A stretch of 64,000 bases of DNA from Selenomonas sp. TAMA-11512 (GTDB taxonomy: Bacteria > Bacillota > Negativicutes > Selenomonadales > Selenomonadaceae), in the NCBI RefSeq assembly GCF_037076525.1, contig NZ_AP029018.1, positions 868,001 through 932,000 on the forward strand, given 5' to 3'. A program made the translations under genes and the position numbers. This document shows positions 60,973 through 63,850 of this stretch, in pieces. Numbering within the stretch: position 1 is the stretch's first letter; every line of letters starts with the position of its first letter. Below the pieces are notes generated by a model that saw nothing but the letters and a program-made list of their open reading frames with translations, was not told the DNA's origin and searched no databases.

Positions 60973-61057
60973 GCGGATGTGGCGGAACTGGCAGACGCGC
61001 TAGACTTAGGATCTAGTACCGCAAGGTGTGAAGGTTCGATTCCTTTCATCCGCACCA
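60973..61057 (+). tRNA. tRNA-Leu (anticodon UAG)
   Basis: The acceptor arm GCGGATG pairs with CATCCGC, followed by ACCA. The anticodon stem CTAGA/TCTAG holds the loop CTTAGGA, giving anticodon TAG, which reads CUA and neighbours. The long variable arm (TACCGCAAGGTGTG region) fits the class II shape and the T arm has GGTTCGATTCC. CCA is encoded. An integrase gene lies about 115 bases downstream, pointing toward the tRNA. Confidence 0.95.
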
Positions 61058-61068
61058 CTAGGAATATC

Positions 61069-61172: not shown

Positions 61173-62279
61173 TTATCGGCCATATTTTTCGGAGATTTTG
61201 TCCATCGTCTCTGAAATACCGTCTTGCATTTTCGCGGTGTTGTGAACATATCTGTCCATCGTGAAGGAGGCGGAAGCATGTCCCATCCGGACTTGTATCT
61301 TCTTTACACCGATTTCCTGCTCTGCAAGTAGTGTCGCGTGGGTGTGTCGGAAGGAATGAAAGCGCAGATCGTCGGGCAATCCGAGACGCTTTTTCAGACT
61401 TGCGAAGATGTGCGTCAAGGCGGTCAAGGTCATCGGCTGTGTGACGTCTTTCAACGAGCGGAAAATATAATCTTCTTCAGCTAGTCTAGTGCCTTTAGAT
61501 AGCAGCGTCTCCGCAAGCTGCACCTTCCACGAGAGAAGGTTTTTGACGGCGGCGGCGGAGAGTGTCACGGTGCGGACGCTGTATGCGCTCTTTGTTTTTC
61601 CCTCGTATTCCTGTGTGCTCTTTTTCCGCGCCTTGGATACGCTGACAGTTGCGCTCTTTGCATCGAAGTCCGACCATCGAAGGGCGACGATCTCACCACG
61701 GCGCAGCCCGCTGTCCCACGCAAATTTAAAAAGGTGCTCTGTCTGTGTGCCTTGTATTTCATCCAGCAATGCGCGGTATATATCGGGCGTCACAATGGCG
61801 GCAGGTGTCGCCTCGTGCTTCGGCTTGTGGATGTAGTCAAGAGGATTGTGCTCGGCGATCTGCTCAAACTTTGCCGCCTTGAAGATGGCGTTTAAAAGTG
61901 TATAGACGGCTTGTCTCGTGCGACTGCCCGTGATTTTCGCTAAAATGTCTTTGATGACGGCCGGGCGGATGTTGCTGATTTTCATATTTTCGGGGATGTT
62001 CGGCAGTATGTGTCTGTCTAGTAAGCATTGATAGTATGCGAGCGTCGATTCTTCTAACTTGTCATCTCGGCGCTTCATTAATATGAAATCTTCTGCGAAA
62101 TTATGAAATGTCTCGATACAGAGATAATCGGCGATGTTGCCTTTAAGGAGTCGCTGCCGCTCGGCTTCCAGTTCTTTCAAGCTGTAGCCGTAGATATACT
62201 TCTTCACTTTCTCCCCGGTCAGGGGATTTTCGATGGTCACGCTGGATTGATAGCGTCCGTCTTTTCTTTTTGTTGGCAC
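61173..62279 (-). CDS. int: Tyrosine site-specific integrase
   Basis: Inserts and helps excise an integrative element. In about 368 residues, an N-terminal arm-binding zone (KRKDGRYQSSVTIENPLTGEK) and SAM-like core-binding domain (about 60-150) precede the catalytic domain. Its Arg lies in DSGLRRGEIVALRW, HxxR in HSFRHTHATLL, His in RMGHASA and the nucleophile Tyr in MDRYVHNT. GTG 62279 follows AGGAGGTG by six bases; longer starts would run into the upstream gene. The gene ends near tRNA-Leu, the usual layout when the tRNA is the attachment site. Confidence 0.9.
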   Translation of the reverse strand: MPTKRKDGRYQSSVTIENPLTGEKVKKYIYGYSLKELEAERQRLLKGNIADYLCIETFHNFAEDFILMKRRDDKLEESTLAYYQCLLDRHILPNIPENMKISNIRPAVIKDILAKITGSRTRQAVYTLLNAIFKAAKFEQIAEHNPLDYIHKPKHEATPAAIVTPDIYRALLDEIQGTQTEHLFKFAWDSGLRRGEIVALRWSDFDAKSATVSVSKARKKSTQEYEGKTKSAYSVRTVTLSAAAVKNLLSWKVQLAETLLSKGTRLAEEDYIFRSLKDVTQPMTLTALTHIFASLKKRLGLPDDLRFHSFRHTHATLLAEQEIGVKKIQVRMGHASASFTMDRYVHNTAKMQDGISETMDKISEKYGR

Positions 62280-62350
62280 GGTAAACACCTCCTGACTTAC
62301 GTTGCTCATCGTGATGGCGCACGGTGGGCGGTTTTTATTTCTGATTTCCA

Positions 62351-62665
62351 TTATCTCTGTGGCTTTAACCCCATCGCTTCCCACCGCTTATAATCTTCCT
62401 CAGTTGGTGGGGGACCTCCTCCATCAAGATCAGTAACCCTATCATCAAGATCTCTAACTTTATCTTCGAGGTCGAGTATGGAGCTCTCGATATCTCTGAC
62501 AGAGTTCTCGATGTTACCGGCCTTTAAATGCTTTTTAAAAGACGCGCGGTTCTTTTGGACAATTTTATGGAGTGATTCGATATAGTTCTGTTGCTGGTAT
62601 GTGATGACGCTGAGAGCACATATTGCGACGACCAGCAGGGTAGTAATGATGTTTTGGCGGGTCAT
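62351..62665 (-). CDS. Small membrane-anchored coiled-coil protein, unknown
   Basis: In the 104 residues, one N-terminal membrane helix (about 7-24, NIITTLLVVAICALSVIT) is followed by a heptad-rich stretch (ESSILDLEDKVRDLDDRVTDLD) and a proline/glycine-rich tail. I recognise no family. Its start overlaps the end of the next upstream gene by ATGA, so both are made together. Position in the repressor-to-integrase operon suggests expression in the integrated state, as for exclusion or maintenance proteins; function unproven. Confidence 0.65.
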   Translation of the reverse strand: MTRQNIITTLLVVAICALSVITYQQQNYIESLHKIVQKNRASFKKHLKAGNIENSVRDIESSILDLEDKVRDLDDRVTDLDGGGPPPTEEDYKRWEAMGLKPQR

Positions 62666-63165
62666 GGCGGATCTCCACCTCTTTTGTTGTTTACGACCGA
62701 ATTGTTGCGTTGATGTTTGTAGTCACCTGAAGGGAGCACCTCGAATGAGCTTTTCCCTTCATGGACGTATTTTTTAACGGGACCATATAATTCGTATCTT
62801 AGCTCGGAAATTGTGTTTTTTAGGATTCGTATTTCATCTTCGTAAGACTTACATGTGCTAATATCTTTATCTGCAAAATCTCTTTGTTTGTCTTCGTATT
62901 TTCTCTGTAATGCATCATATTCTTTTTGTAGGTTTTTATACTCTTCCGCTTGAGATTTACATGTTTTTCCCAGAGAGTTTGAAATTTCCATTCTTCCCAG
63001 ATCGGCCAGCATTCCGAGGATTGTGGCGGCACCTGCCATACTGATTGCATCGCCTGCGTCAGAAAAAAGAGAAGAGGTCAAGATGGTGAGGAGGGCTGTT
63101 CCGTGGAATAAAATAGAACCACTGTTTAAGAATAAAAGGTCGCTTTCACGCTGCCATGTGCTCAT
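62662..63165 (-). CDS. Membrane-associated coiled-coil protein, unknown
   Basis: In the 167 residues, hydrophobic segments in the first 55 residues (ILFHGTALLTILTSSLF, ISMAGAATILGMLADLG) are followed by a long charged coiled coil (about 65-125, EYKNLQKEYDALQRKYEDK). The tail is polar. AAGGAG precedes the ATG. It is coupled to the 104-residue gene downstream and lies next to the ImmA-like gene. No family recognised. The two proteins could pair through their coiled coils; that is inference. Confidence 0.65.
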   Translation of the reverse strand: MSTWQRESDLLFLNSGSILFHGTALLTILTSSLFSDAGDAISMAGAATILGMLADLGRMEISNSLGKTCKSQAEEYKNLQKEYDALQRKYEDKQRDFADKDISTCKSYEDEIRILKNTISELRYELYGPVKKYVHEGKSSFEVLPSGDYKHQRNNSVVNNKRGGDPP

Positions 63166-63410
63166 ATAGATCGCTCCTTAATATTCGATGCAGGAAAATG
63201 AGCTTCCGCCTCAATCTCGTCCGCCATCTCGGGGCGGTGAAAGTCGTTTCTTTTGATGTGCTCAAGCTCGTGTAGATATGTCTCTATATTTGTTTCTCTT
63301 CTATGGTTGGCGTTCAATACAACTGTCGGATCTCCGTTTTCATCAAGCACGGTGAATCCTCTGATCTCAACGGGAAGATTTTGCAACACTGTTCTTACAT
63401 CAGTCGTCAT
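63162..63410 (-). CDS. Short ImmA/IrrE-like metallopeptidase
   Basis: This 82-residue protein carries the zinc motif HELEH (YLHELEHIKRNDF) and a downstream Glu-rich helix (DEIEAEAHF) that could supply a third ligand. ImmA/IrrE proteases cleave phage-type repressors to induce integrative elements; the adjacent repressor is the natural target. It overlaps the repressor gene's end. ATG 63410 is about ten bases from AAGGAG, whereas GTG 63419 is too close. It is shorter than most ImmA proteins, more like a minimal domain. Confidence 0.72.
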   Translation of the reverse strand: MTTDVRTVLQNLPVEIRGFTVLDENGDPTVVLNANHRRETNIETYLHELEHIKRNDFHRPEMADEIEAEAHFPASNIKERSI

Positions 63411-63798
63411 AATCTCCACGCTCCTTCGATTTTTGGTATTCGATAAAACGCCTCACCTCTTCAATCGATTCTTTCTTTAAGCCCCGTGTCGCGTCAAAGA
63501 GGACGCGGATATCGGGGTTCTCTTTCATTTCATTTGCAATCGCCGCTACTTCCGGATCGTCGTAGTAGGAGGTTGGAAAATTTTCCTCTAAAAAGTAGCT
63601 TTTCCCCAAGTTAAAATGGTCGGCTATTTTTTGTATCACGCCCATTCTTGGAAGTGATATTTGCAACAACCATTTACCCACAGTCGATTCGCTTACATTT
63701 AGGATTTTACTTAGTTCTGCCTGATTGATGTCACGTTCATTCATTACGCGTTGCAAACGCGTACTAAAAAGCTTTTTGAGCCCCTCTGTATCTGGCAC
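63400..63798 (-). CDS. XRE-family repressor (CI-like) of the integrative element
   Basis: The 132 residues hold an N-terminal helix-turn-helix (RLQRVMNERDINQAELSKILNVSESTVGKWL) and a C-terminal tail of helices (LKKESIEEVRRFIEYQKSK) probably used for dimerisation. There is no LexA-type peptidase domain, so release would need another factor, such as the ImmA-like protein encoded next. It starts at GTG. Its promoter overlaps a perfect operator palindrome, so it should repress itself and the divergent gene. Confidence 0.85.
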   Translation of the reverse strand: MPDTEGLKKLFSTRLQRVMNERDINQAELSKILNVSESTVGKWLLQISLPRMGVIQKIADHFNLGKSYFLEENFPTSYYDDPEVAAIANEMKENPDIRVLFDATRGLKKESIEEVRRFIEYQKSKERGDYDD

Positions 63799-63821
63799 TT
63801 ACATCACCACCTTTGCCATAG

Positions 63822-63850
63822 ATTATAGAATAATATTCTATATATGTCAA
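63822..63850 (-). promoter_or_regulatory. Promoter of the repressor operon, consensus
   Basis: On the minus strand TTGACA (63850-63845) and TATAAT (63827-63822) are separated by exactly 17 bases, a perfect sigma-70 match. The palindrome at 63824-63842 fills the spacer. Confidence 0.82.
63824..63842. promoter_or_regulatory. Operator palindrome of the lysogeny switch
   Basis: TATAGAATA, one central A, TATTCTATA: a perfect 9+9 inverted repeat lying between the -35 and -10 of the repressor promoter. A looser match (TATAGAAATAAAATCTAGTA, 63887-63906) covers the opposite promoter. Confidence 0.65.

Follow-up and report, generated by a model that had tools for sequence, protein, structure and literature searches.

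Two predicted membrane-protein genes in the repressor operon of a Selenomonas prophage: exchangeable cargo with a plausible anti-phage function

What do two small genes do that lie between the repressor and the integrase of a prophage in Selenomonas sp. TAMA-11512? The source genome is a single contig of 2,593,422 bases, of which a stretch of 64,000 nt, here called the window, was analysed. A 63-bp repeat over the 3′ end of a tRNA-Leu gene (60973-61057) and its other copy, at 104223-104285 in window numbering and thus beyond the window, delimit a 43.3-kb prophage in tRNA-Leu, and the window holds only its left 3 kb. The prophage encodes a helicase, a terminase, a head-tail adaptor, tail proteins, a holin and an amidase, and from its tail-tubular and adaptor names we read it as podovirus-type; the virus is dormant in a bacterium of oral type. 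Among the tail genes, outside the window, there is an ORF of 3190 aa (89481-99053 in window numbering). The far end of the prophage, before attR, carries a SocA_Panacea antitoxin-domain gene (PF13274, 6e-18; L004:2312-3209, or 103112-104009 in window numbering) overlapped by a 149-aa gene with a weak PADLOC match to NsnC (9e-6), a candidate toxin-antitoxin or defence pair judging by these matches. The features at the left end are the following:

63822..63850, minus strand: promoter-like TTGACA-17-TATAAT pointing into the repressor operon (consensus match; function predicted)
63824-63842: perfect palindrome of 9+9, an operator candidate overlapping the promoter-like site
63400..63798, minus strand: HTH (Cro/CI-type) repressor, first gene of the operon (PF01381, 2.8e-8; PHROG 8, 1.8e-15)
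63162..63419, minus strand: short ImmA-like peptidase gene, 85 aa, HExxH retained (PF06114, E 0.0015, below Pfam's cut-off; PHROG 20886, 3.3e-9)
62662..63165, minus strand: P167, an ORF of 167 aa with two hydrophobic helices and one long charged helix predicted
62351..62665, minus strand: P104, an ORF of 104 aa with one transmembrane (TM) helix, the juxtamembrane motif ITYQQQNYI and a coiled coil; founder of a small family
61173..62279, minus strand: tyrosine integrase (PF00589, 6.1e-27), GTG start at 62279 likely by its Shine-Dalgarno sequence, ORF open to 62384
61004..61066: attL, the 63-bp repeat (2 mismatches, exact run of 56 bp) over the tRNA-Leu 3′ end

The initial annotation had placed two translationally coupled ORFs of the repressor operon at 62351-63165, between the ImmA-like gene and the integrase. 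This description stands: the two ORFs occupy exactly that interval and lie, like the repressor gene, on the minus strand. ATGA stop/start overlaps join the ImmA-like gene to P167 and P167 to P104, and Shine-Dalgarno-like sequences, TTAAGGAGCGATCTATATG and GAGGTGGAGATCCGCCATG, precede the starts of P167 and P104. The more likely integrase start is the GTG at 62279, which follows AGGAGG by 8 nt; an ORF extended to the listed start, 62384, would overlap P104. On the minus strand from 62279 to 63800 our scan reported no terminator-like site. Upstream, the sigma-70 consensus site running from 63850 into the repressor gene matches at 12 of 12 positions. The promoter scan returned five promoter-like sites against a mean of 4.3 in shuffled sequence, so that their count is ordinary, but a perfect match at the right place is not. 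Position, hydropathy and structural models together support the location of the pair in a lysogenic operon and its membrane nature.

P104 is the better defined of the two proteins. It has a single TM helix (KD 2.13) and, at residues 50-82, a nearly perfect heptad pattern (contrast 0.96) that none of 5000 shuffles equalled; AlphaFold, given a three-sequence alignment, predicts helices at 2-46 and 49-81 (pLDDT 72.5). Against the S. noxia homologue, pN is 0.34 and pS 0.88. Since synonymous change is thus near saturation while pN remains at that value, the frame is under selection, and P104 is a real gene. Five members of its family were found, P104 included, all of them in Selenomonadaceae and uncharacterised: the others are in S. 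noxia ATCC 43541 (61% over residues 21-81), in Selenomonas sp. F0473 (32%) and in G193 and G198, both genomes of a different genus. A profile search passed 29 of 189 family genomes at E 0.001, with only the five members at 2.2e-21 or better, E-values that are not independent for the three members included in the query alignment. The other 24 matches start at 6e-7 and cover mostly the coil alone. In the class sample, 61 of 380 genomes passed and the same five came out on top; weaker hits, mostly coil-only, were left out of the family count. In G322 a hit at E 1.9e-9 combines a hydrophobic helix with a coil but lacks ITYQQQNYI, and we rejected it as a relative. A looser DNA pattern matched five contigs, of which one was the S. 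noxia prophage and four had stop codons around the match. The phage collection of 50,697 records gave no match to P104, and further searches added no relative to the five.

Two properties run through the whole family. The sequence IT[YW]QQQNYI stands at the end of the TM helix in 5/5 members, and the heptad tail is significant in each of them (equalled by 0 to 2 of 1000 shuffles). In the 30 residues from the start of the motif, basic residues number 4 to 6 and acidic ones 2, against 1 to 2 and 0 to 1, respectively, ahead of the TM helix; this charge balance leans weakly towards a coil that is probably cytoplasmic. Three members (in the window, S. noxia ATCC 43541 and F0473) sit in the interval between repressor and recombinase of three prophages, with differing neighbours. 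G193 and G198 carry theirs outside such an interval (loci L073:5103-7466 and L074:827-6225). In G193 the gene is flanked by an opposite-strand PBECR1 gene and a DUF805 membrane-protein gene, in G198 by an opposite-strand LPD3 gene and a membrane-protein gene that has no family, and in both an opposite-strand sigma-factor-like gene, recognised by eye, follows the membrane-protein gene. This small uncharacterised membrane family is the most durable finding of our analysis.

Is P167 a gene of the same standing? It has two hydrophobic stretches (KD 1.51 and 1.24), and a single-sequence model gives one long helix (pLDDT 65). The protein would probably consist of two hydrophobic helices and a long charged helix with short, weak heptad runs. 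A single-register heptad test over residues 66-131 fails, 3578 of 5000 shuffles being as good, and only marginal short runs lie near 74-98 and 106-126 (the best 21-residue window was equalled by 27 of 1000 shuffles). The proposal of long coiled coils, made for both proteins, is therefore borne out in P104, but for P167 it is weak. The searches for relatives of P167 were negative throughout: none in the viral_contigs and genome_contigs sets, two scans that detect close relatives only; none better than E 0.2 among 50,697 phage records; none among 72,556 plasmid records; only weak helix-region matches among the 189 family genomes at E 0.1 (best other E 0.0018); and only its own genome among 380 of the class (1/380). 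A fold search of the model against the PDB gave no match at E 10 or better, which carries little weight with a model of such low confidence. Codon usage (-0.206 per codon) lies inside the shuffle range and below that of frame +1 (-0.124), hence not clearly coding, and G+C is 0.411 compared with 0.526 for the prophage. The absence of relatives, the codon usage and the low G+C would fit a non-functional P167, either an ORF under drift or the remnant of a gene upstream of P104. We regard that reading as highly doubtful, and P167 as probably a real gene, because the ORF is longer than the longest one (155 aa) in 300 shuffles of the region, has its own Shine-Dalgarno sequence and overlaps its neighbours by ATGA on both sides.

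The two proteins had also been said to match no known family, which our comparison with Pfam, NCBIfam, PHROGs and PADLOC bears out: no family was convincing and the weak matches resemble coiled-coil noise. Their PDB sequence matches likewise resemble generic coiled coils. The suggestion that a membrane anchor with coiled coils might be a sensor or a channel regulator found no footing, as no sensor or channel domain was detected. A SLATT 2TM effector, suggested by topology and by an NCBIfam SLATT_4 hit (E 0.049; 13.5 bits against a cut-off of 55), did not survive profile comparison by hhalign, in which the SLATT side was built from five SLATT_4-search proteins, two of them of the full-length kind over the cut-off: it gave a probability of 0.7%, for 30 columns that fall outside the TM region. 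Recurrence of the pair in other prophages had been named as one of two things whose absence would count against an anti-phage role. P104 relatives stand beside other partners, and P167 relatives were found in none of the phage, plasmid, family and class searches, so this half of the adverse outcome is what we observe; by these searches P167/P104 is not a conserved pair seen elsewhere. Taken together, the original observation was mostly right and its interpretation is partly supported.

What occupies this position in related prophages? Our search located the ImmA-like protein in 12 of the 189 family genomes, and we read the surroundings of the 11 others. By eye, seven of the 11 have a same-strand downstream recombinase, of the tyrosine type in G008 (F0473), G123, G219, G201 and G113 and of the serine type in G020 and G004. 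In the stretch read for G216, G106, G108 and G002 no recombinase was seen (IS transposases, the contig end, or none seen). These seven, the window and S. noxia (G118), which was found through P104 and in which the ImmA-like gene is longer and the recombinase of the serine type, make nine slots, filled as follows:

Window: P167 and P104
F0473: 160-aa protein, DUF805 protein, P104 relative, Beta protein; two opposite-strand ORFs
S. noxia: 173-aa protein, P104 relative, rhodanese
G123: 177-aa protein, rhodanese, 91-aa protein
G020: SIR2 protein
G004: Bro-N protein; HicAB on the opposite strand
G113: 145-aa protein; Bro-N between HTH and ImmA
G219: nothing between ImmA and integrase; NYN gene between HTH and ImmA
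G201: empty

The slot is thus empty in 2/9 and filled with differing genes in 7/9. PADLOC gave strong matches inside three of the seven filled slots, namely PD-Lambda-2_C in F0473 (1.2e-27), PDC-S25 in G020 (the SIR2 protein, 1.5e-146) and PDC-S13 in G004 (9.9e-117); G113 has a PDC-S13 match (1e-114) in the gene one upstream of its slot. As PDC models describe candidate defence systems only and Bro-N proteins are often regulators, F0473 and G020 are the firmer defence cases. The G020 SIR2 protein (L026:3050-4612), between the ImmA-like gene and the serine recombinase, matches PDC-S25 over almost its full length. In F0473 the Beta-protein gene (L020:5641-6768) lies behind an HTH/ImmA-like unit, and a HigB-like gene was not recognised. 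Other occupants do not look like defence genes: rhodaneses, and secreted proteins with apparent signal peptides (by eye) in the S. noxia and G123 slots. The prophages of the window and of S. noxia have DNA in common in the replication region (79% over 534 bp), with no match between their repressor or recombinase DNA; the window prophage and G123 have repressor/ImmA DNA in common (75% over 363 bp), but the cargo differs. Modules therefore shuffle around the slot, which is an exchangeable cargo site in Selenomonadaceae prophages, and the position of the pair is an ordinary one for accessory genes expressed in lysogeny.

Characterised systems at the same address offer parallels. According to the available excerpt of PMC3952083, int, ltp and a metalloproteinase gene are ORFs 1 to 3 of phage TP-J34 and share the minus strand; Ltp prevents the injection of DNA. 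The excerpt of PMC7693887 describes lactococcal lysogeny modules with extra genes between integrase and repressor, some of which confer superinfection exclusion; the Sie proteins encoded there are small membrane proteins, and in SieF7/2AB two adjacent genes of the module act in tandem. The same source reports that three genes at the equivalent position of phage Dub35A conferred no resistance. P104 and P167, predicted from hydropathy and models to be small, membrane-associated and hydrophobic at the N-terminus, resemble the Ltp/Sie2009 type in these traits, in lying between integrase and repressor and in sharing the TP-J34 gene order (PMC3952083 and PMC7693887, in excerpt). The likeness to Ltp is one of position and description, Ltp being a lipoprotein outside the membrane whereas P104 has a TM anchor and a coiled coil. 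SieF7/2AB is likewise a set of two adjacent lysogeny-module genes, but the window genes do not recur as a pair (PMC7693887, in excerpt). PD-Lambda-2 consists of HigB, an HTH-peptidase protein and a third component (PMC9519451, in excerpt); the HTH-peptidase protein is a point of likeness, and in F0473 the gene that immediately follows the P104 relative, encoding the Beta protein, matches the third component. The window operon differs in having neither a Beta protein nor a HigB-like toxin, and we rejected its membership: a Pfam search of the five proteins of the operon revealed no Beta protein, and PADLOC was applied to the pair only. PdpSau, a further prophage protein with a membrane anchor, is encoded in the lysis module (PMC10127798, in excerpt). 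Our searches for papers on such Selenomonas genes listed nothing but a report on prophages of two further strains (PMC13339959, in excerpt).

Several other roles have to be weighed against exclusion. In RexAB-type abortive infection one protein senses the infection, and its partner then kills or arrests the cell by depolarising the membrane. The excerpt of PMC12894663 places RexAB of lambda and the RexAB-type pair of P. putida P1 downstream of the repressor in its operon, the address of P167 and P104, which are also two adjacent genes, and the Sbash and Butters pairs are likewise expressed in lysogeny (PMC7542560, in excerpt). The known systems, however, are described as combining a cytoplasmic partner with a four-TM protein (PMC12894663 and PMC7542560, in excerpt), whereas neither P104, with one TM helix, nor P167, with probably and at most two, is plainly cytoplasmic; gene order is kept in the Butters pair and not in ours. 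We rejected membership in the RexAB type on topology, and consider abortive infection of this kind unlikely. Envelope lysogenic conversion, by membrane or surface genes that alter host fitness and play no part in phage defence, would account for the rhodanese and apparent signal-peptide proteins of the S. noxia and G123 slots and for an Adhesin_E protein near the ImmA-like gene of G216; P104 and P167 have no secreted domain, though, and the F0473 relative of P104 directly precedes a PD-Lambda-2_C Beta protein, and we consider conversion unlikely.

The coupling of the pair directly behind the ImmA-like gene, in one operon, would also suit a regulatory accessory that tethers or controls the peptidase or the repressor at the membrane for lysis-lysogeny signalling. 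The repressor/ImmA/integrase core nevertheless exists in G201 and G219 with no such pair, and elsewhere with unrelated cargo, so we judge this role very unlikely. Finally, P104 has the TM-plus-coil shape of an inner-membrane Rz-like spanin and a very weak match to PHROG 739 (Rz-like, E 0.23), and by eye no spanin was recognised beside the holin and the amidase. P104 nonetheless lies in the repressor operon, on the strand opposite to the late genes and about 40 kb from the lysis genes, with no lipoprotein-like partner seen by eye in overlapping frames; we rejected the assignment, and a misplaced spanin is extremely improbable.

The reading we prefer, tentatively, is that P167 and P104 are accessory membrane genes expressed in lysogeny from a swappable slot and that they act in superinfection exclusion by blocking genome entry. 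An exclusion or other anti-phage role is favoured because known or candidate defence genes occupy the equivalent slot of related prophages. The operon anatomy, the perfect consensus promoter, the P104 relatives in the same slot and, by analogy, the TP-J34 and lactococcal Sie systems (in the excerpts cited above) argue in the same direction. Against exclusion speak the non-defence occupants, the lack of a P167 relative, the failure of the pair to recur, the two of five P104 relatives outside the slot, the lack of a PADLOC match to either protein and the Dub35A genes that, in the excerpt of PMC7693887, gave no resistance. Of the earlier proposal of exclusion or anti-phage proteins, the operon location, the membrane nature and the defence genes among slot-mates lend support, but the pair recurs nowhere. 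An anti-phage function is plausible as a hypothesis.

How might such a pair act? We infer that both proteins would be produced in the lysogen from the repressor promoter. The single TM helix of P104 would hold the protein in the inner membrane and place ITYQQQNYI at the membrane's border; the coiled coil, which to judge from the charges around it is probably on the cytoplasmic side, would oligomerise. P167 may be a two-helix membrane partner of P104 or an independent neighbour. The target of the two proteins might be a membrane component on which incoming phages rely; by binding it they would block genome entry and so protect the lysogen and its prophage by superinfection exclusion. A broader idea, which we think improbable as it stands, sees in the P104 family a membrane adaptor that prophages reuse in their anti-phage modules, one anchor being combined with changing partners: in the window P167, in F0473 DUF805 and the PD-Lambda-2_C Beta protein, and in G193 a DUF805 protein. 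The coil of such an adaptor would bring the partner to the membrane, and the juxtamembrane motif, which is invariant, would sense or block phage entry.

Taken alone, the pair offers a hypothesis about two unstudied small proteins. The wider meaning lies in the interval between repressor and recombinase of Selenomonadaceae prophages, a cargo slot from which candidate exclusion and defence genes may be harvested, and in P104, which names one small recurring membrane family as worth testing.
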